Below, in pieces: positions 26,944-38,749 of a DNA stretch of 64,000 nt (positions within the stretch are counted from its first letter, which is position 1; every line of letters starts with the position of its first letter). Both the position numbers and the translations under genes were made by a program. Location: contig NZ_JAQGJM010000027.1 in NCBI RefSeq assembly GCF_028290625.1, forward strand, positions 186,001 to 250,000. Reading direction: 5' to 3'. This stretch comes from Devosia sp. (GTDB taxonomy: Bacteria > Pseudomonadota > Alphaproteobacteria > Rhizobiales > Devosiaceae). A model generated the notes under the pieces. The model saw nothing but the letters and a program-made list of their open reading frames with translations. It did not search any database and was not told the DNA's origin.

Positions 26944-27537
26944 ATGCCGAAAATCGGTGCAGAGGCAGTCCGCCGAAAAGCGATGATCGAGGCGGCCATC
27001 GTCGAGATCGGCGAAGCCGGCAGCCTCGACGTCACGGTCAGCCAGATCGCGCGCCGCGCCGGCATGTCACCGGCCCTGGCCCACCACTATTTCGGCTCCA
27101 AGGACCAAATGTTCCTGGCTGCCATGCGCCACATCCTCAAGCTCTATGGCGAGAGCGTGCGGCACCGCACGATCGGCCTCCGCACGCCGGTCGAGCGCCT
27201 CCACGCCATCATCGATGCCAGTTTCGCACCCGACCAGTTCCAGCCCGAAGTCGTCGCCTCCTGGCTGACCTTCTACGTCCGCGCGCTCCAGTCGGAGGAA
27301 GCCAGCCGCCTGCTGCAGATTTACGCCAGGCGGCTGCATTCGAACCTTGTGTTCAACCTGCGCCAGATTTTCGACCCCGATACCGCGCAGTCTGTGGCGC
27401 AGGGCATGGCCGCCCTGATCGACGGTTTTTACATTCGCCACGCCCTGCAGGATTTCGCCCCGGCCCAGCCCGAGGTGCGCGCGCTGGTGATGGATTATCT
27501 AGAACTTTATCTCGCTAGGAACGCAAAGCATGGCTGA
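26944..27537 (+). CDS. betI: Transcriptional repressor of choline-to-betaine genes
   Basis: A 197-residue TetR-family repressor. The N-terminal HTH reads VTVSQIARRAGMSPALAHHYFGSKDQMFLAAMRHIL, almost diagnostic of BetI, and the C-terminal ligand domain keeps SWLTFYVRALQSEEASRLLQIYARRLHSNL. Its stop overlaps the betC start by eight bases. It is expected to bind the palindrome at 26875 and control both choXWV and betICBA in response to choline. Confidence 0.94.
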   Translation: MPKIGAEAVRRKAMIEAAIVEIGEAGSLDVTVSQIARRAGMSPALAHHYFGSKDQMFLAAMRHILKLYGESVRHRTIGLRTPVERLHAIIDASFAPDQFQPEVVASWLTFYVRALQSEEASRLLQIYARRLHSNLVFNLRQIFDPDTAQSVAQGMAALIDGFYIRHALQDFAPAQPEVRALVMDYLELYLARNAKHG

Positions 27538-29047
27538 GCGGCCCAATATCCTGATCGTCATGGTCGACCAGCTCAACGGCACGCTGTTTCCCGATGGCCC
27601 GGCCGAATGGCTGCATGCGCCCAATCTCAAGGCTTTGGCGGCCCGCTCGGCACGATTCGCCCACACCTATACCGGCTCGCCGTTGTGCGCGCCGGGCCGT
27701 GCCAGCTTCATGTCCGGGCAATTGCCGCATCGCACCCGCGTCTACGACAACGCCGCCGAGTTCACCTCGGATATCCCCACTTATGCCCATCACCTGCGCC
27801 GCGCCGGCTATGCCACGACGCTGTGCGGCAAGATGCATTTCGTCGGCCCCGACCAGATGCACGGCTTCGAGGAGCGCTTGACCACCGACATCTACCCCGC
27901 CGATTTCGGCTGGACGCCGGACTATACGCGGCCGGGCGAGCGCATCGACTGGTGGTACCACAACCTCGGCTCGGTGACCGGCGCAGGCGTGGCCGAGATC
28001 ACTAACCAGCTCGAATTCGACGACGAAGTCGCTTTCAACGCCGTCCGCAAGGTGCACGACCTCGGCCGCCGCCTCGACGCGCGTCCGTGGATGCTGACCG
28101 TCAGCTTCACCCACCCCCACGACCCCTATGTGGCGCGCCGGAAATACTGGGACCTCTACGAAGACTGCGAGCACCTGACGCCTGAAGTCGCGCCCATGGC
28201 GTATGAGGATCAGGACCCGCATTCCCGCCGCCTGCTCGACGCCAGCGATGCCCAATCCTCGCCACTGACCGACGATGACGTCGCCCGCTCCCGCCGCGCC
28301 TACTTCGCCAATATCTCCTACATCGACGACAAGATCGGCGAAGTCCTCGCCGCTCTCGATGGCACGCGCCAAGCCGAAAATACCATCATCCTGTTCGTCT
28401 CCGACCACGGCGACATGCTTGGCGAGCGCGGCCTGTGGTTCAAGATGAACTTCTTCGAAGGCTCATCCCGCGTGCCGCTGATGATCGCGGCGCCGCAGCT
28501 GCCGCCCGGCCGCATCGACGTACCGGTGAGCACCATGGACGTCACGCCCACGCTCTGCGACCTCGCCGGCATCGCCATGGGCCCGGTGCTGGCCTGGACC
28601 GATGGCGAATCGCTGGTGCCCCTCGCCAATGGCGCCGCGCGCTTCTCGCCCGTCCGCATGGAATACGCCGCCGAAGGCTCCATCGCCCCGATGGTGGCCC
28701 TGCGGCTGGAGCAGTGGAAATACATCCACTGCGAAGTCGATCCGCCGCAGCTGTTCGATATCGCCGCCGATCCGCACGAGTTGAACAACCTTGCCGCCGA
28801 CCCGACGCATGCCACCACGGCCGCGTGGTTCGCCGTGCAGGTCGCCGAGATCTGGGCGCTGGCAGCTTATGACGCCGATGTCCGCGCCAGCCAGGCCCGC
28901 CGCCACCTCGTCTACGAAGCCCTCCGCAACGGCGACTATTACCCCTGGGATTTCCAGCCGCTGCAAAAGGCATCCGAGCGCTATATGCGCAACCACATGG
29001 ACCTCAACGTCCTCGAAACCTCCAAGCGCTACCCGAGGGGCGAATAA
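27530..29047 (+). CDS. betC: Choline-sulfatase
   Basis: A 505-residue type I sulfatase converting choline-O-sulfate to choline and sulfate in the cytoplasm. The sulfatase motif is [13 protein letters not shown], in which Cys53 would be oxidised to formylglycine. Metal-binding residues are visible in [15 protein letters not shown] at the N-terminus and [30 protein letters not shown]. The C-terminal choline-sulfatase extension ending [19 protein letters not shown] is present. betI-betC-betB-betA is the order known from Sinorhizobium, and overlaps on both sides show tight coupling. Confidence 0.94.
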
Positions 29048-30507
29048 TGCGCGATGTCCAACCCGCCGGCAGCCATTTTGTCGATGGCCACTATATCGAT
29101 GATCCCGCCGGCCGCCTGATCGAATGCATCTATCCGGCCACCGGCGAAGTCGTCGCGCGGCTGCATTCGGCCACCCCCGCTATCATCGAACTGGCACTCG
29201 CCTCCGCAGTCCGCGCCCAAAAGGAATGGGCCGCCCTCCGCCCCGTCGTGCGCGGCCGCGTCCTCCGCAAAGCCGCCGATATCCTGCGCGAGCGCAACCA
29301 GGAACTCTCCGAGCTCGAAACCATCGACACTGGCAAGCCCATCCAGGAAACCCTGGTGGCCGACGCGGCCTCGGGCGCCGATGCGCTCGAATATTTCGGC
29401 GGCCTGATTGCTTCCGACACCGGCGAAACCATCCCCCTGGGCGGCGATTTCGTCTACACGATCCGGGAAGCGCTCGGCGTCTGCGTCGGCATCGGCGCCT
29501 GGAACTACCCCACCCAGATCGCCTGCTGGAAAGCCGCTCCGGCGCTCGCCTGCGGCAATGCCATGATCTTCAAGCCCTCGGAAACTACGCCTCTCGGCGC
29601 GCTCAAGCTGGCCGAGATCCTGATCCTCGCTGGCGCCCCCGCGGGCCTGCTCAACGTCGTGCAAGGCTATAGCGACGTCGGCGGCGCACTTGTCACCGAT
29701 CCGCGCGTGGCCAAGGTCTCCCTCACCGGCTCCATCGGCACCGGCCGCAAAGTCTATGCCGCCGCCGCCGACGGGATGCGCCACGTCACCATGGAACTGG
29801 GCGGCAAATCGCCCCTGATCATCTTCGAGGACGCCGACATCGACTCGGCCGTCAGCGCCGCCATCAACGCCAATTTCTACTCAAGCGGCCAGGTTTGCTC
29901 CAACGGCACCCGCGTCTTCGTCCACGATGCCGTCCGCCCCACCTTCCTCGCCAGGCTGGTCAAGCGAACCGCCAATGCCATCATCGGCGACCCGCTCGAC
30001 GAGGCCACCCAAGTCGGCCCGCTGGTCTCCGAAGCCCAACGCAACAAGGTTCTGGGTTACATCGAAACCGGCAAGACCGAAGGCGCCAAACTCCTGATCG
30101 GCGGCCGCGTCCCACCGAGCCAAAACTCAGGCTTCTACATCGAGCCCACCATCTTCGCCGACGTTACCGACGACATGACCATCGCCCGCGAGGAAATCTT
30201 CGGCCCGGTTATGTCCGTCCTCGGCTTCACTGAGGAAACCGACGTCATCACCCGCGCCAACGCCACCCAGTTCGGCCTTGCCGCCGGCGTCTTCACCGCC
30301 GACATGGCCCGCGCCCATCGCGTCATCGCAAAACTCGAAGCCGGCACCTGCTGGATCAATACCTACAATATCACCCCGGTCGAAGCCCCCTTCGGCGGCG
30401 TCAAGCTCTCCGGCGTTGGCCGCGAGAATTCCCGCGCCGCGCTGGATCACTATAGCCAGATCAAATCGGTCTATGTCGCCATGAGCCCCGTCGCGGCCGC
30501 CTACTAG
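29047..30507 (+). CDS. betB: Betaine aldehyde dehydrogenase
   Basis: A 486-residue NAD-dependent aldehyde dehydrogenase oxidising betaine aldehyde to glycine betaine. Catalytic Cys284 lies in [17 protein letters not shown], the general base glutamate in [18 protein letters not shown], and the cofactor region in [13 protein letters not shown]. The C-terminal [23 protein letters not shown] is typical of BetB. The ATG shares one base with the betC stop codon. Confidence 0.95.
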
Positions 30508-30517
30508 GAGCCTGCCC

Positions 30518-32179
30518 ATGGAAGCCGACTTCGTCATCATCGGTTCGGGCTCGGCCGGCGCCGCCATGGCTTCGCGCCTCAGCGAGGACGGCAAGCATTC
30601 CGTCATCGTGCTCGAATTCGGCGGCACCGATGCCGGCCCGTTGATCCAGATGCCGGCCGCGCTCAGCTACCCGATGAACATGCCGCGCTACGATTGGGGC
30701 TTCGTGTCCGAACCCGAGCCGCATCTCGGCGGGCGCACCCTGGCCGTGCCGCGCGGCAAGGTCATCGGCGGCTCGTCCTCGATCAACGGCATGGTCTATG
30801 TCCGCGGCCATGCCGGCGACTACGATCATTGGGCCGAAAGCGGCGCCACCGGCTGGGGCTATGCCGATGTCGTCCCCTATTTCAAGCGCATGGAAAACTG
30901 GCATCCCGGCCCCCATGGCGGCGATCCCGATCGGCGTGGCAAGTCCGGCCCGCTGCACGTCACCCGCGGCAAGCGCGACAATCCGCTATTTCAGACCTTC
31001 GTCACCGCCGGCAAGCAGGCCGGATTCGAGCTCACTGACGATTACAATGGCGAGCAGCAGGAAGGCTTCGGTCCGATGGAACAAACGGTCTGGCAAGGCC
31101 GCCGCTGGTCTGCCGCCAATGCCTATCTCAAGCCCGCCCGCAGCCGGCAGAACCTCACCATAGTCCGCTGCTTCGCCCGCAAGATCGTTATCGAAAACGG
31201 CCGCGCCACCGGCGTTGAGATCGACCGCAATGGTGTGGTCGAAGTCGTGCAAGCGCGAAAAGAGGTCATCGTCGCCGCTTCTTCGATCAATTCACCCAAA
31301 CTTCTCCTGCTCTCCGGCATCGGCCCTGCTGCCCAACTGTCCGAACACGGCATTCCGCTGGTCGCCGATCGTCCCGGCGTCGGCGCCAACCTGCAAGACC
31401 ATATGGAGCTCTATATCCAGCAGGCCTCCATCCAGCCGATCACGCTCTACAAATACTGGAACCTGTTAGGCAAGGCGCTGATCGGGGCGCAATGGCTATT
31501 GTTCAAGAACGGCCTCGGCGCCTCCAACCAGTTCGAAAGCGCGGCCTTCATCCGCTCCAAAGCCGGGGTCAAATACCCCGATATCCAGTTCCATTTCATC
31601 CCCATCGCCATCCGCTATGACGGGCAAGCGGCGGCCGAGGGCCATGGCTTCCAGGCCCATGTTGGCCCCATGCGCTCGGCGTCGCGCGGTGCCGTCACCC
31701 TGCGCTCGGCCGACCCCAAGATCGCCCCGCGCATCCAGTTCAACTACATGAGCGACCCCAAGGACTGGGCCGACTTCCGCCACTGCATCCACATCACCCG
31801 CGAAATCTTCGGCCAAAAGGCCTTCGATCCCTATCGCGGCAAGGAAATCCTGCCGGGCGACAAATACCAAACCGACGACGAACTCGACGACCACATCCGC
31901 CGTCACGCCGAAAGCGCCTACCACCCCTGCGGCACCTGTCGCATGGGCCGCGCTGACGATCCGATGGCCGTGGTCGACCCGGAATGCCGCGTCATCGGCG
32001 TCGAGGGCCTCCGCGTCGCCGATAGCTCGATCTTCCCGCGCATCACCAATGGCAACCTCAACGGCCCCTCCATCATGGTCGGCGAGAAAGCCTCCGACCA
32101 CATCCTCGGCAAAACCCCGCTGCCGCCCAGCAATGACGTGCCCTGGATTAATCCCCGCTGGCAGACCTCGGACCGCTAG
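30518..32179 (+). CDS. betA: Choline dehydrogenase
   Basis: A 553-residue GMC flavoprotein oxidising choline to betaine aldehyde. The FAD motif [20 protein letters not shown] begins at residue 4; the GMC signatures [19 protein letters not shown] and [17 protein letters not shown] are intact; the C-terminal active site is [15 protein letters not shown] and [19 protein letters not shown]. It follows betB by 10 bases and ends the operon. Membrane association and ubiquinone as acceptor are family knowledge, not visible in sequence. Confidence 0.95.
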
Positions 32180-32927: not shown

Positions 32928-34262
32928 CTAGCTTGCTGCCTGGTGGGCGGGGAGCGTCAGTATGGCCTCGAACCCGTCCGTCGCGCCAGTTGCGGGAGAG
33001 TGGAGGGCGAGGCCGCCACCTGTCTGCTCCATGATGGAGTCGACGATGGACAGGCCGAGGCCCGTTCCGCTTGCCGATGTGGCGCCACGCACGAAGCGCT
33101 CACCGATCCGGGCCAGGACATCGGCCGGAACAATTGGCCCGGCATTGACGACGCTTATCGTGCGGTCCGGCCGCGCCGTAACCTCGACGGGACCATCGAG
33201 GGCGCCATGGATCAGGGCGTTTTGAATGAGGTTGCGAACCGCGATGGCGAAGGCGTCCATATTGATCGCACCGACCAGGGCGGTTCCCTCCTCGACGCTC
33301 AAATGCACTCGGGCTCCTGCTATCGCCTGGAAGTCGCGCACCACAAGCCGGAGCACCGGCAGCAGATCGATGTCGACATCGGATTGGGCGAAGCCTGCAT
33401 CCAATCGCGAGAGTTGCAGGAGCATTTCGGCAAGATGGGCCAAATGCCGCAACGCCTGTTCGATCTCCTTGAGGCGCTGGCTGCCGGGGCGGTCTGCGAG
33501 TTCGATCGCCAATTGCTGCGTCTGGGCCAGTGCGCCGGCGATCGGGGTGCGCAACTCGTGGGCACTGCTGGCGGCGAAGGAGCGCTCAGCGTTCATGGCG
33601 GCGCGCAGGCGCGTCAGCAGGCTGGCCACGGCTTCGGCAATCGGCGCGAGCTCCGTCGGGTGCCCTTCCGAGATCAGCGGCGACAGGTTCCGGCTATCCC
33701 GCGAGGCTATGTCCCGCCGCAACCGCTCGAGCGGACGCATGGCAAGGCGAATGGCGAACCAGATGCCCAGCGCGATCAGGGGAATGAGCGCCAGCAGCGG
33801 CCAGGTGAGCGCCGCCAGGCTCCTGCCCAGCGCCGCCCGACGATGATCGGTGCGCTCGATGACGACGATGCCATAGCCGAAACGATGGTCGGTTATGGAA
33901 AACAGGCGCTCGCCCTCGATCTCCGAGAAGCCGTCGCCGGCAGGGATCGATGTGACGTCATCGGCTAGACCGGCAGACCGCACGACGATTGCCCCCGTCC
34001 GATCCCGCACATAGTAGCTGAAGTCCCCCTGGTCTTCGGCTAGTCCCGCGATCTCGAGATCATTGCCCTCGCGGGGTTCGCGCAGGCCGTGGGTAACCAG
34101 CGGCAACAGGCGAAACGCGCTTTGCCTGAGGGTTTCGTCAAAGGCGGCATCGAGCTGGCGCTGCATCACGGTGCCGGCGATCGAGGCGGCGCCGATCCAC
34201 AACAGGGCCGTGCCCGCCGTGAGGCCAATGGCAAGACGCAGGGCAATCGAGTGTGGCGCCAC
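32928..34262 (-). CDS. Sensor histidine kinase (QseC/TctE-like)
   Basis: A 444-residue membrane kinase: N-terminal transmembrane segment (IALRLAIGLTAGTALLWIGAASIAG), a periplasmic region of about 130 residues, a second segment (LAALTWPLLALIPLIALGIWFAI), HAMP-like linker, H-box SSAHELRTPIAGALAQ, N-box RNLIQNALIHG and G-box ATSASGTGLGLSIVDSIM. The likely start is GTG 34262, two bases after the response-regulator stop, so the pair is co-translated. The system is divergent from the DUF2271-flavoprotein-ApbE genes, which it probably controls. The periplasmic signal is unknown. Confidence 0.87.
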   Translation of the reverse strand: MAPHSIALRLAIGLTAGTALLWIGAASIAGTVMQRQLDAAFDETLRQSAFRLLPLVTHGLREPREGNDLEIAGLAEDQGDFSYYVRDRTGAIVVRSAGLADDVTSIPAGDGFSEIEGERLFSITDHRFGYGIVVIERTDHRRAALGRSLAALTWPLLALIPLIALGIWFAIRLAMRPLERLRRDIASRDSRNLSPLISEGHPTELAPIAEAVASLLTRLRAAMNAERSFAASSAHELRTPIAGALAQTQQLAIELADRPGSQRLKEIEQALRHLAHLAEMLLQLSRLDAGFAQSDVDIDLLPVLRLVVRDFQAIAGARVHLSVEEGTALVGAINMDAFAIAVRNLIQNALIHGALDGPVEVTARPDRTISVVNAGPIVPADVLARIGERFVRGATSASGTGLGLSIVDSIMEQTGGGLALHSPATGATDGFEAILTLPAHQAAS

Positions 34263-34264
34263 GA

Positions 34265-34921
34265 TCAGGCCTCGACCTGATAGCCGAGGCCACGCGCGGT
34301 GCTGACAAAGTCGCGCCCGAGTTTCTTGCGCAGCCGGCTGATATAGACTTCCACCGCATTGCTCTCGATCTCGGCGCCGAAGGCATAGAGCGAATCCTCG
34401 ATTTCGCCCTTGGTCACAATGGCGCCGCGATGGCGGACCAGCCGCTCGAGCACCGCCCACTCGCGTCCTGTCAGCGTGGCGGGCTTGTCGCCGACGATGA
34501 CGATCTTGCGGCCAAGATCGATCGAAACCGGACCGATACTGATCGCGGGGGACGGATTGCCCGCATAACGCCGGGCGACAGCGGAGACGCGCGCGCTCAT
34601 TTCGCTCAGATCGAAGGGTTTGACGAGGTAGTCATCGGCGCCCGAATTGAGCCCTTCGATGCGCACAGCGATCTGATCCTGGGCGGTGGTGATGATCACC
34701 GGCACCCGATTAAGCGCCGCCCGCAATTCGCGCAACAGATCGAGGCCGCGCCCGTCGGGCAGGTTGAGGTCGAGCAGAACCAATTCGTAGGCAACGTTGG
34801 CCAGGGCCAGCTTGGCCTCATCGATGCGTTTCATCCAGTCGACGCCGTGACCGCTGGCGGCGATATGGTCGCGGATGGCGCCACCCAGCACGTAGTCGTC
34901 TTCGATCAGCAATACGCGCAC
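34265..34921 (-). CDS. OmpR-family response regulator
   Basis: A 218-residue regulator starting at GTG 34921 (AGGTGGA upstream). The receiver domain has acidic residues in LLIEDDYVLGG, the phospho-acceptor Asp51 in LVLLDLNLPDG, and the conserved Lys in DYLVKPFDL. The C-terminal winged helix includes LTGREWAVLERLVRHRGAIVTKGEIEDSL and NAVEVYISRLRKKLG. A 22-codon upstream extension in frame is not family-like. The best match in layout is QseB/TctD-type systems next to redox or metal genes. Confidence 0.9.
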   Translation of the reverse strand: MRVLLIEDDYVLGGAIRDHIAASGHGVDWMKRIDEAKLALANVAYELVLLDLNLPDGRGLDLLRELRAALNRVPVIITTAQDQIAVRIEGLNSGADDYLVKPFDLSEMSARVSAVARRYAGNPSPAISIGPVSIDLGRKIVIVGDKPATLTGREWAVLERLVRHRGAIVTKGEIEDSLYAFGAEIESNAVEVYISRLRKKLGRDFVSTARGLGYQVEA

Positions 34922-34965
34922 GGTCCACCTCTGCGCCGGGTTTAGCACCGTAACCTGACACCAGG

Positions 34966-34992
34966 CTGAAGAGATTTCTGGCCCCACTTCAG
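34966..34992. promoter_or_regulatory. CTGAAG/CTTCAG inverted repeat in the two-component/DUF2271 gap
   Basis: CTGAAG (34966-34971) and CTTCAG (34987-34992) form an inverted repeat with a 15-base spacer in the 131-base divergent gap. It is a reasonable operator for the adjacent response regulator, but short repeats of this type are common, so support is weak. Confidence 0.3.
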
Positions 34993-35052
34993 GGTGGCGT
35001 CAGCTTCCCATGACACTTCTGCCGTCCTCGATATCACCTTTGAGGAACTGTC

Positions 35053-35523
35053 ATGAAAAAGCTCGTCGCCATTCTGATGCTGGCCACGGCGATCGTCGCT
35101 CCCGAAACCGCCTTTGCCAAGGACCTTTCCATCACCGCGCAGATGGGACCTTACAGCGGGCGGCCCGCTTATCTCGCCATCTATGTCACCAAGCCGGATG
35201 GCTCCTATGATTCGACCCTTTGGATCGCAGGGCAAAAGACCCGGTTTTACCAGGACCTGCGCAACTGGTTCCGGGGAATCGCCGCCAGCGGCGAAACGAT
35301 CGACGGCATCACCGGGGCCAGTGTGGGCAGCGGACAAACTCTCAGCGTAAACGTCACCCTCGCCGATGCGCTTATTGATGCGGGCTACCAGTTGCACGTC
35401 GACAGCGCCGTGGAAGACGGCGGCTATTATCCCAACGACGTCGTCCTGCCCTTATCGACCGCCAGTTCGGGCAAGCCGGTTTCCGGCTCCGGCTACGTTC
35501 AGTCGCTCACCGTGACCATGTGA
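35053..35523 (+). CDS. DUF2271 periplasmic protein with ApbE flavinylation motif
   Basis: A 156-residue exported protein: Sec signal peptide with predicted cleavage after FAFA-like ETAFA (residue 22), then a single DUF2271 domain (SITAQMGPYSGRPAYLAIYVTKPDG, WIAGQKTRFYQDLRNWF). The segment IDGITGAS at residues 83-90 matches the ApbE target pattern D-G-x-(S/T)-G-A-(T/S), with Ser90 as the presumed FMN acceptor rather than the usual Thr. The next two genes encode a membrane flavoreductase and ApbE, so this is probably the periplasmic flavin-carrying end of an electron route. DUF2271 itself has no assigned biochemical function that I know of. Confidence 0.85.
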   Translation: MKKLVAILMLATAIVAPETAFAKDLSITAQMGPYSGRPAYLAIYVTKPDGSYDSTLWIAGQKTRFYQDLRNWFRGIAASGETIDGITGASVGSGQTLSVNVTLADALIDAGYQLHVDSAVEDGGYYPNDVVLPLSTASSGKPVSGSGYVQSLTVTM

Positions 35524-35541
35524 CTTGCAGAGGTCCCGATC

Positions 35542-37758
35542 GTGTTGCGCCGTCTGCACTCCCTTCCCGCGTTGATCGCCGCGCTCGTCGTCAGCTTCAT
35601 GGCGTTGACCGGGGCCTTCCTGTCGCTCGACCCCGCCATCCAGCATTTCGCGGCGAGCGGTACTCAAACCGCCGGAGTTAATGCCGCGGAACTGGCAAGC
35701 AGCGTTGCGGCCAACTTTCCGGGGGTCGAACGCATCGTCAAGTTGGCCTCCGGATCGGTCATTGCCTATTATTCCGATGGTGCCGGACAAGTGGCGGCCA
35801 CTATCGACCCGCAGACCGGCAATAGCCTTGGCGCCTACGCGCCCTCGCCCGTCTTCGGTTTCATGACCGAGCTGCACCGGTCGCTCTTCCTGGGAGAAGG
35901 CGGACGTGCCGTCGCGGGGATCGGCGCGTTTGCGCTGGTGATCCTTTCGATATCGGGTGGCCTGCTGCTGGTGGCGCGCCTGGGCGGTTGGGCCAAGGTG
36001 TTCAGTGCGGCACGTGGCACGTTCACCCAGCGCCTGCATGTCGATATCGGCAGGATTGCCATTGCGGCCCTGCTGCTGACCGCGACGACCGGCACTTACA
36101 TGTCGCTGGTCAATTTCGGTTTCATCAGCGACGGGTCCGGGGCCCTGGCGGCCTTTCCCACCAATGTCGATGGCGGCAAGCCGGCTGCCATCGCCGATCT
36201 GGCAGCGTTGCGGGCGACGCCCCTGGGCGATCTGCGCGAACTGGTATTCCCGTTCCGGGGCGACCCGACCGATGTCTTCACGCTGACCACCAATGCCGGC
36301 CAGGGCTTCGTCGATCAGGCGACCGGGACGATGCTGTCTTTCACGGCCAACAATTTTGGCCAATCGGTCTATGAGGCCTTTTATACCCTCCACACGGGTC
36401 AGGGCGTCTGGTGGCTTGGTCTGCTGCTCGGAGCCGCGGCACTCTGCGTTCCGGTCATGGCCGCCAGCGGCACGGTAATCTGGTGGCTGCGGCGCCGCAA
36501 TCTGCCGAAGCTGAACCGTAATGTAGCAGCACGCGCCGCCGATACCGTCATTCTGGTCGGCAGCGAGGGCAATTCGACCTGGGGCTATGCCGCCGCGTTG
36601 CACGAGGCTTTGACGCAGGCCGGCCATCGTGTCCACACCTCGGCGATGAACGGGATTGCGCGCGACTATGGCCGTGCACGGCAGATGTTCATTCTCACCG
36701 CAACCTATGGCGACGGCGGCCCCCCGGCATCGGCGAACCGCTTTCTCGCCCGTCTCGCAAAACTGGAAACGCCCGCGCTTTCCTTCGCCGTTCTGGGCTT
36801 CGGGGACCGGAGCTTTGCGCATTACTGCCAGTTTGCCGCCGATGTCGAGACAGCGCTGGTGGCGCGCGGCTGGTCGCCCTTTCAGCCGGTTGGCACCATC
36901 GATCGCCAGTCGTCCCAGACGTTCGCGCAATGGGGCGCTGCGACCGCCGCGCGGATCGGGACACAATTGCACCTGGTGCACACGCCTGCCCGGCCCCGCA
37001 CCACCGATCTGACGTTGCTCACGCGCGTCGATTATGGCGTCGAGGTCCAGGCGCCGACGACCGTATTGCGGTTTGGTGTTGCAGAAAGCGCGCGTGGCGG
37101 CTTGTTTGGCCTGCTTGGCGGCAGACGCTTGCTGCGCTTCGAGGCCGGGGACCTGGTGGGTATACTGCCTCCGGGCAGCTCCATTCCGCGCTACTATTCA
37201 CTCGCCTCCTCGTCCAGGCAGGGATTTCTGGAGATCTGCGTTCGCAAACTGCAGGGCGGGGCCTGCTCGGAATATCTGCATGCGCTGGCGCCGGGCAGTA
37301 CCATCGAGGCCTTCGTCAAGCCCAATCCCAATTTCCGGCCCGCTTCGGGCAGGACGCCGGTGATCATGATCGGCGCTGGAACTGGCATCGCCCCACTTGC
37401 CGGCTTCATCCAGGGCAATACCAGGCATCGCCCCATGCACCTCTATTTCGGCGGGCGCGATCCGCATTCCGACTTCCTCTACGAGGACGCCATGGCCGCG
37501 TGGCTTGAGGACACCCGCCTGACGCGCCTGGTCACGGCATTCTCGCGCATCGTCGATGGCGCCTATGTGCAGGACAGGGTGCGCGAGGATGCCGAACAAA
37601 TCCGCACGCTCGTCGCGCGCGGCGCGCAGATCATGGTGTGCGGCGGCATCGACATGGCGCGCGGCGCCAGGGAGGCGATCGACGAAATCATATCGCCGCT
37701 CGGTGAAAACGCGCTCACGCTCAAGGCAAAGGGACGGTATCTCGAAGATGTCTATTGA
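35542..37758 (+). CDS. PepSY membrane / flavodoxin / FNR-type reductase fusion
   Basis: A 738-residue inner-membrane flavoprotein starting at GTG 35542 (GAGGT upstream). Residues 1 to about 330 are a PepSY-associated membrane region with several helices (LIAALVVSFMALTGAFLS, LVILSISGGLLLVARLGG, IAIAALLLTATTGTYMS, LLLGAAALCVPVMAASG). Then comes a flavodoxin-like FMN domain (VGSEGNSTWGYAAALHEAL, TATYGDGGPPASANRF) and a cytochrome-P450-reductase/sulfite-reductase-type FAD/NADPH domain (PRYYSLASSS, MIGAGTGIAPLAGFI). The architecture implies NADPH to FAD to FMN to membrane transfer. With the flavinylated DUF2271 protein before it and ApbE after it, it likely drives an outward electron route. Confidence 0.88.
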   Translation: MLRRLHSLPALIAALVVSFMALTGAFLSLDPAIQHFAASGTQTAGVNAAELASSVAANFPGVERIVKLASGSVIAYYSDGAGQVAATIDPQTGNSLGAYAPSPVFGFMTELHRSLFLGEGGRAVAGIGAFALVILSISGGLLLVARLGGWAKVFSAARGTFTQRLHVDIGRIAIAALLLTATTGTYMSLVNFGFISDGSGALAAFPTNVDGGKPAAIADLAALRATPLGDLRELVFPFRGDPTDVFTLTTNAGQGFVDQATGTMLSFTANNFGQSVYEAFYTLHTGQGVWWLGLLLGAAALCVPVMAASGTVIWWLRRRNLPKLNRNVAARAADTVILVGSEGNSTWGYAAALHEALTQAGHRVHTSAMNGIARDYGRARQMFILTATYGDGGPPASANRFLARLAKLETPALSFAVLGFGDRSFAHYCQFAADVETALVARGWSPFQPVGTIDRQSSQTFAQWGAATAARIGTQLHLVHTPARPRTTDLTLLTRVDYGVEVQAPTTVLRFGVAESARGGLFGLLGGRRLLRFEAGDLVGILPPGSSIPRYYSLASSSRQGFLEICVRKLQGGACSEYLHALAPGSTIEAFVKPNPNFRPASGRTPVIMIGAGTGIAPLAGFIQGNTRHRPMHLYFGGRDPHSDFLYEDAMAAWLEDTRLTRLVTAFSRIVDGAYVQDRVREDAEQIRTLVARGAQIMVCGGIDMARGAREAIDEIISPLGENALTLKAKGRYLEDVY

Positions 37759-38749
37759 GCAGTATTCGGTGGTCCCCAGCGTCGCCTGGCAGCCATTTCC
37801 CATGTCCGCCCCGCTGCAGCGCTATGCCCTCAACGAGGCCACTATGGGGACGCGCTACTCCGCCATTTTCTTCGCGGCGGCGGGTCTTGATACCACGCCG
37901 ATTGCCGACGCCTTGCAGGCGGCCGTGGATGAGGTCGACAACCAGATGTCGACATGGAAACCGGCCTCCGACCTCTCGCGCGTCAATGCCGCCCCGGTTG
38001 GGCAATGGGTCGAGATTCCGCACGATCTGGCAAATGTCCTCGCTGCCTCGCTGGAAATCGGCCGGGCCTCCGGCGGCGCCTTCCACATTGGCGTCGGCGA
38101 CCTGGTCAATGCCTGGGGCTTCGGCCCAACCGGCGCGCAACCCCACACCGCGCGCATCGCCGAGCTGGCGGCTCAACCCCGGTCTGCGATGGACGATATG
38201 CTCGATCTGGACGCGGCCGGTGGCAGGGTGCGCAAACGCGCTCCGGTTACGCTCGACCTGTCGGGCATCGCCAAGGGTTTTGGCGTCGATCAGCTTGCAC
38301 GTTGTCTCGATGGCTTTGGTATCGCTCACTATCTGGTCGGCATCGATGGCGAGATGCGCGCCAGTGGGCACAAGCCCGGAGGCGGGCCCTGGGTTCTGGC
38401 GGTCGAACAGCCCGACCAGGCGGCACGTGATGTCGCGCGGCTCATCAAGGTCACCGATTGTGCCATCGCCACATCGGGCGACTACCGGCATCGGGTGGAG
38501 ATGGACGGCCACACTGCCTCGCACACAATGGACCCCGCGAGTGGCCGCCCGCTATCCAACAATCTCGCATCTGTCACCGTCCTCGCGGCCGACTGCATGC
38601 ACGCCGATGCCTGGGCCACCGCGCTGATGGTCCTCGGCGACATTGAGGGCCCCGCGTTCGCTGCGCGACGCGGCATGGATGCGCTGTTCATCGTCCGCGA
38701 CGGAAATGGCTTCCGGGAACTGGCGGTGGGCGCGTTCCGGCAGGGCTGA
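37748..38749 (+). CDS. apbE: FAD:protein FMN transferase
   Basis: A 333-residue ApbE-family enzyme that moves FMN from FAD onto Ser or Thr of target proteins. Core motifs are visible: EATMGTRYSAIFF, MSTWKPASDLSRVNA, LDLSGIAKGFGVDQLARCL, YLVGIDGEMRASG and HTMDPASGRPLSNNLASVTVLAADCMHADAWATALM. ATG 37748 overlaps the flavoprotein stop by 11 bases. The expected N-terminal signal peptide or lipobox is absent, both from this start and from the upstream in-frame extension. That is odd because its presumed substrate, the DUF2271 protein, is exported. Confidence 0.92.
   Translation: MSIEQYSVVPSVAWQPFPMSAPLQRYALNEATMGTRYSAIFFAAAGLDTTPIADALQAAVDEVDNQMSTWKPASDLSRVNAAPVGQWVEIPHDLANVLAASLEIGRASGGAFHIGVGDLVNAWGFGPTGAQPHTARIAELAAQPRSAMDDMLDLDAAGGRVRKRAPVTLDLSGIAKGFGVDQLARCLDGFGIAHYLVGIDGEMRASGHKPGGGPWVLAVEQPDQAARDVARLIKVTDCAIATSGDYRHRVEMDGHTASHTMDPASGRPLSNNLASVTVLAADCMHADAWATALMVLGDIEGPAFAARRGMDALFIVRDGNGFRELAVGAFRQG

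Follow-up and report, generated by a model that had tools for sequence, protein, structure and literature searches.

A probable electron-export module in Devosia

Five adjacent genes of the soil bacterium Devosia sp. (NCBI RefSeq assembly GCF_028290625.1) probably make up a flavin- and heme-based electron-export machine that carries its own switch and has iron as its likely target. They lie at positions 32928..38749 of a 64,000-nucleotide stretch of contig NZ_JAQGJM010000027.1 (positions 186,001 to 250,000, forward strand; hereafter the window), and encode a sensor histidine kinase (HK), a response regulator (RR), an exported DUF2271 protein, a PepSY_TM membrane protein fused to a flavin reductase, and the FMN transferase ApbE. 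The module is of a known kind, here in a fused variant controlled by a two-component system (TCS); from the sequence we infer that its new parts are an operator-defined regulon and an ApbE that lacks a signal peptide. A Pfam profile search of the window recovered all five genes, which confirms the gene set, with its divergent HK and RR, described in an earlier note on this DNA. Besides the papers cited below, the literature drawn on comprises PMC11334425, PMC7190382, PMC12666569, PMC12714742, PMC13038864 and PMC12052999. The features are:

32928..34262, minus strand: sensor HK, HATPase_c and HisKA, with a short N-terminal sensor region; start set by homolog alignment
34265..34921, minus strand: OmpR-family RR, Response_reg and Trans_reg_C
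34954..34970, plus strand: regulator box 1, CCTGACACCAGGCTGAA, CTGAC-N6-CTGAA, an 11-bp direct repeat; putative operator
34988..35004, minus strand: regulator box 2, GCTGACGCCACCCTGAA, an inverted copy 34 bp from box 1; putative operator
35053..35523, plus strand: DUF2271 periplasmic protein (PF10029, E 4.9e-32), with a Sec-type signal peptide by hydropathy and reading
35542..37758, plus strand: whole fusion gene, PepSY_TM and diflavin reductase in one frame
35542..36522, plus strand: PepSY_TM part of the fusion, residues 1-327, with invariant His 6, 112, 166 and 284
36550..37758, plus strand: flavodoxin (FMN) and FAD/NADPH reductase part of the fusion, with a C-terminal Tyr and invariant Ser668-Arg669
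37748..38749, plus strand: ApbE, FAD:protein FMN transferase (PF02424, E 7.7e-78), with no signal peptide

The open frame of the HK (510 aa, to 34460) is over-long, and homolog alignment places its coding part at about 32928-34262. The likely start of ApbE is the ATG at 37748, which gives an 11 bp overlap with the stop of the fusion.

The PepSY-diflavin fusion and its electron path

The earlier note had proposed a PepSY membrane protein joined to a complete reductase, and a single frame indeed holds PepSY_TM (PF03929; residues 3-317), Flavodoxin_1 (337-459), FAD_binding_6 (530-589) and NAD_binding_1 (609-710). This PepSY_TM protein is encoded together with ApbE, with scores that exceed the Pfam cut-offs. 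In the transmembrane (TM) half, four histidines (6, 112, 166 and 284) are invariant in 19/19 sequences and are predicted ligands of two hemes b. The sole PDB sequence match of this half at E ≤0.01 is FoxB, the siderophore reductase of Pseudomonas aeruginosa (7ABW), a relative for which hemes have been published; three of the four histidines fall inside the alignment, and H166 lies in an unaligned stretch. A predicted model of the TM half, made on its own, resembles FoxB far better than any other structure, the structure search with the whole fusion having covered mainly residues 327-738.

By fold search, residues 333-738 form a diflavin module of the type of P450 reductase and neuronal nitric oxide synthase (NOS), so that a single chain carries FMN, FAD and NADPH domains. 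The alignment of the FAD/NADPH part spans ~240 residues, as against ~435 in P450 reductase domain entries, and the connecting domain therefore seems to be reduced. NADPH-P450 reductase, CysJ and NOS share the flavodoxin and FAD/NADPH module, which in the window is tethered to a heme-type membrane domain. The fold and Ser668-Arg669, presumably the residues of NADPH specificity, point to NADPH rather than NADH as the donor.

In the mechanism that we propose, electrons from NADPH would pass to FAD and on to FMN within the cytosolic half of the fusion, and would cross two bis-His hemes b in the FoxB-like half to reach a covalent FMN. ApbE would have attached this FMN to the exported DUF2271 protein, whose most likely substrate in the periplasm would be ferric iron (or ferric chelates). 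Transfer from NADPH to a periplasmic flavin, as in the earlier note, is still the best reading of a locus that combines a FoxB-like part with four histidines, a diflavin reductase, a DUF2271 site and ApbE. The likeness to FoxB lies in the PepSY_TM fold and the conserved heme-binding histidines; FoxB, however, reduces the siderophore in its own cavity and its donor has been called unknown, whereas in the present fusion the PepSY_TM hemes have a candidate donor within the same chain, and a flavoprotein is the likely acceptor.

Recurrence of the gene arrangement

Of 60 relatives searched, 16 encode a homolog that matches the fusion along its whole length or a large part of it, and ~15-18 kb around each was examined. 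The TCS, DUF2271 and the fusion stand together in 15 of the 16 and in a named metagenome-assembled genome (Marivivens, L053); with the window these are the 17 first loci. Such an arrangement is far beyond chance. The exception, G017 (L050), has only a paralog type without a TCS, in the order DUF2271, fusion, ankyrin-repeat protein, ApbE. The Devosia genome itself carries this type as a second copy (L005:5238-10357, contig C33), with an exported ankyrin-repeat protein between the fusion and apbE, no TCS beside the set and no exact box on contig C33. Some copies are broken or shortened: the fusion frame of G018 breaks near its end, and the match in G025 covers residues 1-395 only.

A scan of named genomes gave two loci only, and a class-wide PF10029 search of 385 genomes gave 20 DUF2271 proteins over the cut-off in 19 genomes, two of the 20 being the window's own; 16 loci from this search (L127-L142) were examined, besides those of G340 and G402. 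The fused type occurs in G340, G402, G147 and G172, and the TCS in three of these four (the G172 contig ends). Among the 14 unfused loci, nine have a homologous reductase encoded separately nearby, an uncounted weak tenth match lying on the opposite strand in L138, and we conclude that the fusion unites two genes that are often adjacent elsewhere. This TCS is present at module-like scores in none of the 14, with weak RR or HK matches in L130 and L136.

A two-box operator linked to the TCS

The intergenic region between the TCS and DUF2271 contains two inverted, exact SCTKAC-N6-CTGAA boxes in 16 of the 17 first loci, always 34 bp apart start to start (16/16) and with half-sites that repeat at 11 bp; L053 has a single box with one mismatch. 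OmpR-family regulators bind half-sites every 11 bp, and the boxes of BqsRS, QseBC and PmrAB are 11-bp direct repeats. We propose that the divergent TCS would control the operon through this inverted pair, to which the RR would bind.

Whole-genome searches for the composite of both boxes, at zero mismatch, matched in 5/385 genomes of a class sample, 28/397 of an order sample and 10/398 of a phylum sample, the last ten all within the class of Devosia; composites with other spacing or mismatches would escape such a search, and the reversed pattern gave no match in the same genomes. Less overlaps and the Devosia genome itself, this gives 37 genomes (G026, G027, G040 and G045 had helped to define the box). 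Homologous RR and HK genes occur in all 37, in 36 of them within the stretch first examined; in G468 the TCS lies downstream of apbE, ~4 kb from the site. The target is DUF2271 in 30 of the 37 (visible only in a longer region for G482 and G618), and PepSY_2 with cytochrome b561, with no DUF2271 in the examined stretch, in six. In the remaining one, G706, the site is accompanied by genes for an FMN_bind protein, an RnfD/NqrB-FNR fusion, cytochrome b561 and an ApbE with a frame that starts only at the domain. In G991, PepSY_2, cytochrome b561 and DUF2271 share a single locus. Where the DUF2271 unit lies apart from the TCS and PepSY_2, both can bear the composite (G618, G714), and G147 has two near-exact pairs. 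The pair is not merely a product of back-to-back promoters, because the L143-L151 family has it before DUF2271 with the TCS and DUF2271 in the same direction.

Single boxes were also found at an unlinked gene. An identical copy of the box 1 17-mer lies on another contig of the Devosia genome, 68 bp upstream of a cytochrome b561 gene, and a related cytochrome b561 gene lies downstream of apbE in G007, G029 and G020. When the 300 bp before cytochrome b561 genes were scanned, an exact box was present in 7 of 12 genomes with the TCS module and in 0 of 18 without the TCS type, a comparison that covers not every b561 gene per genome and for which G018, G025, G027 and G034, all with the module, had no match good enough. 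These boxes have a single orientation throughout and lie 67-183 bp upstream. Since the same operator precedes other transmembrane modules and a single box precedes cytochrome b561, we suggest that the TCS regulates electron export and not just a single enzyme; on the evidence of the conserved site pair, it appears to switch on several electron-export gene sets in many related bacteria. No report of this TCS, of its box or of a link to cytochrome b561 was found in a search that left most subscription papers outside.

Other single boxes and altered copies may be recorded here. An exact box in the orientation of the b561 boxes (L076:5702-5718, Devosia genome) lies ~70-90 bp before a gene that reads as a secreted von Willebrand-type protein and is a lead only. 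Near-identical 17-mers matching the single box occur in C13, C19, C25, C35 and C46 of the same genome (four CCTGACCTTCCGCTGAA, one CCTGACCCTCCGCTGAA), the C19 copy between ccmH-like and degP-like genes, and are perhaps a dispersed repeat rather than operators. A cytochrome b561 gene of G026 (C1:3412210) has an in-frame TGA.

The sub-threshold best NCBIfam matches are QseC/PmrB-like for the HK and PmrA/QseB-like for the RR. With BqsRS, QseBC and PmrAB the TCS shares an OmpR-family regulator and a short sensor, and BqsRS is also adjoined by PepSY genes. The inverted CTGAC-N6-CTGAA boxes of the window, however, are unlike the BqsR box, TTAAG-N6-TTAAG, and their targets are flavin and heme electron-transfer genes. 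As to a possible signal, an ExxE-type motif is present in 45 of 57 kinase rows (some of which are the same protein from overlapping loci) as against 4.0 in shuffles, mostly at a juxtamembrane HExxE that is probably generic. Of the periplasmic (R/H)ExxE metal site of Fe(II)-sensing kinases of the BqsS type, the window HK has only REPRE, and relatives vary.

The TCS might instead be an envelope-stress regulator of the DbfQRS type, with the electron-transfer genes as one effector arm and a PepSY_2 protein as the periplasmic ligand. PepSY_2 genes do adjoin the TCS in many loci, much as PA2658/PA2659 adjoin BqsRS in P. aeruginosa, and the small PepSY protein DbfQ binds DbfS in a system that responds to membrane integrity. 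The PepSY_2 profile, however, matches no frame in the window, and the site-adjacent genes in the 37 operator loci, identified by eight profiles or by reading, are electron-transfer or PepSY genes, more distant effectors not having been sought. We consider this explanation rather unlikely.

DUF2271 and the signal-less ApbE

The DGITGAS motif to which the earlier note had drawn attention is intact in the exported DUF2271 protein and contains its single [ST]GA[ST] site (TGAS, residues 87-90), with Ser90 as the putative flavin acceptor. The [ST]GAS site is conserved in 19/19 DUF2271 proteins of the set, each with a hydrophobic N-terminus (at least 1.53 on a 15-residue hydropathy window, a crude basis for signal-peptide calls). 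No ApbE N-terminus of the 18 loci exceeds 0.95 on the same measure, and neither an extracytosolic-ApbE signal nor a lipoprotein signal was found by hydropathy of the N-termini in any of the 18. Either flavinylation precedes export or the pairing of the two proteins is misread.

The earlier note had held that DUF2271 proteins near apbE were without a proven role, a statement overtaken by work of 2021 (PMC8238504), in which ApbE flavinylates a DUF2271 protein and a Thr-to-Ala change abolishes the modification; the three-gene module thus belongs to a known class. In the same paper, ApbE and a DUF2271 protein of this motif class, both stripped of their signals, gave flavinylation of the latter in Escherichia coli. 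The note's electron path stands, then, and its assessment of DUF2271 does not; the missing signal of ApbE and the two-box operator had escaped it.

It could be argued that ApbE modifies a cytosolic protein encoded elsewhere, and that DUF2271 works without covalent FMN. The lack of a signal peptide in 18/18 loci would fit, and in a review according to which most ApbEs seem to be secreted, the cytosolic bacterial one, from Klebsiella, has a cytosolic target. Such a division of labour sits poorly with the retention of [ST]GAS in every DUF2271 protein, with the absence of a comparable site from the fusion, ApbE and the RR (the HK has TGAT near its C-terminus), and with flavinylation in E. coli of signal-less proteins. 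We judge it unlikely.

The lack of a signal was also considered as a mark of the fused type only and rejected by whole-frame hydropathy, as most ApbEs of the 14 unfused alphaproteobacterial clusters seem likewise to lack one; L130 and L139 are borderline, and L140, in which ApbE is fused to DUF2271, has a hydrophobic N-terminus. The unfused DUF2271 proteins of L127-L129, L133, L135-L137 and L139 have a degenerate site (e.g. DGLSSAT, DGVSGPT) in which the last Thr is kept.

The electron acceptor

VIT1 (PF01988) is a family of iron/manganese transporters. Of the 17 first loci, 8 have a VIT1 gene beside the module: after the HK in L040, L041, L042, L047 and L037 (where it is in pieces, L037:12620-13602), and near apbE in L045, L048 and L049. 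It is also present in L173 and L174, of eight further regions, and the match in the Devosia genome is on the same contig, ~40 kb before the window and 75 kb from the module. VIT1 genes beside some modules favour iron reduction; VIT1 neighbours have already served as an argument that other classes act in iron assimilation (PMC8238504). In Caulobacter, a related operon is more strongly expressed in iron-import mutants, and its disruption by insertions lowers fitness in EDTA (PMC12004947). The acceptors listed in the earlier note fare unequally, then: iron gains from the VIT1 neighbours and the Caulobacter chelation phenotype, whereas for a thiol or methionine-sulfoxide system nothing was found, no profile search having been made for it.

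The same electron path might lead to periplasmic copper in support of heme-copper oxidases, as proposed for CrpH of Bordetella, a PepSY_TM protein in which a FoxB-like His is needed for oxidase function; the HK also has a weak match, far under the cut-off, to heavy-metal sensor kinases of the cztS_silS_copS family. But among the frames common to at least 3 of 16 relative loci and taken as coding (VIT1, cytochrome b561, an ABC-type ATPase and a small exported protein), VIT1 recurs and no copper family is evident, copper genes not having been profile-searched, and CrpH forms a separate PepSY_TM cluster in a paper whose text contains neither 'flavin' nor 'DUF2271'. Copper is, in our view, a very unlikely acceptor. 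That the module feeds an MsrPQ-like repair system for methionine sulfoxide or thiols seems highly improbable, as the case is one of analogy (MsrQ is structurally related to PepSY_TM) and no repair enzyme is among those same frames, in a comparison that included no profile search for repair genes.

Exported proteins with long Asp/Glu runs are encoded between PepSY_2 and DUF2271 in L048 (7517-7981, with no Pfam family match) and L049 (10398-10847), and may be metal-binding. Upstream of the module, positions 27530-32179 read as a choline-sulfate/betaine-like pathway (sulfatase, aldehyde dehydrogenase and a GMC choline-dehydrogenase-like protein).

Relation to known systems

Meheust et al. 2021 (PMC8238504) described PepSY-like flavinylation systems with the same combination of PepSY_TM, DUF2271 and ApbE, and already counted 1077 PepSY-like genes with PF00175. 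The terms 'histidine kinase' and 'response regulator' are absent from the main text of that paper, and NADH is suggested there as the donor, whereas the present module is TCS-linked and its folds point to NADPH. The NQR/RNF-like system of the same paper has a carrier and a membrane part that are not homologous to those of the window module; FMN_bind, ApbE and the RnfD-FNR fusion are preceded in G706 by the TCS and operator described here. CCNA_03155-03159 of Caulobacter (PMC12004947) likewise comprise PepSY, DUF2271 and flavin reductase genes in an alphaproteobacterium, but include DUF4198, which the TCS-linked operon of the window has not. In a Brucella ovis flavoprotein survey (PMC9045290), a split PepSY_TM/flavodoxin/FAD/NAD cluster, with apbE next by locus tag, is listed as sulfite reductase alpha, a name that is probably wrong because the domain order resembles that of the window fusion type.

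Several observations weigh against an iron-directed, operator-controlled module. The operator genomes are related, and the 37 are therefore not 37 independent events. Single boxes in the Devosia genome number 12, as against 9 for the reversed pattern, no excess over the control; the idea that each marks a regulon member was rejected on this count, comparative support being confined to the cytochrome b561 site. A signal-less ApbE fits badly with flavinylation of an exported protein. By BLAST, VIT1 was not found in the window, in the four regions L071-L074, in the 16 class loci L127-L142 or in the short stretches examined, and the VIT1 proteins of L040, L041 and L042 are 91-92% identical to that of L047, which implies few independent events. 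Iron sensing by the HK, proposed from its ExxE motif, is confounded by the juxtamembrane motif and is a hint only.

With these points in mind, we put forward a broader reading tentatively, as a possibility to which we give less than even weight: an alphaproteobacterial electron-export regulon in which one HK/RR pair and a fixed two-box operator would drive interchangeable, partly non-homologous machines (DUF2271/PepSY-diflavin, FMN_bind/RnfD-FNR and PepSY_2/cytochrome b561, with b561 recurring), and in which a signal-less ApbE would attach FMN to DUF2271 in the cytosol, ahead of export. If true, cytosolic flavinylation of DUF2271 would run counter to the rule that FMN is added to exported proteins on the outside, and the signal-less ApbE poses a clean question as to where exported flavoproteins acquire their cofactor. 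The enzyme module is known by kind, and the operator opens it to testing: with a candidate regulator, a binding sequence, alternative modules and an unlinked, presumably co-regulated cytochrome b561 all named, a single regulator mutant and a single binding assay would suffice to define its physiology.
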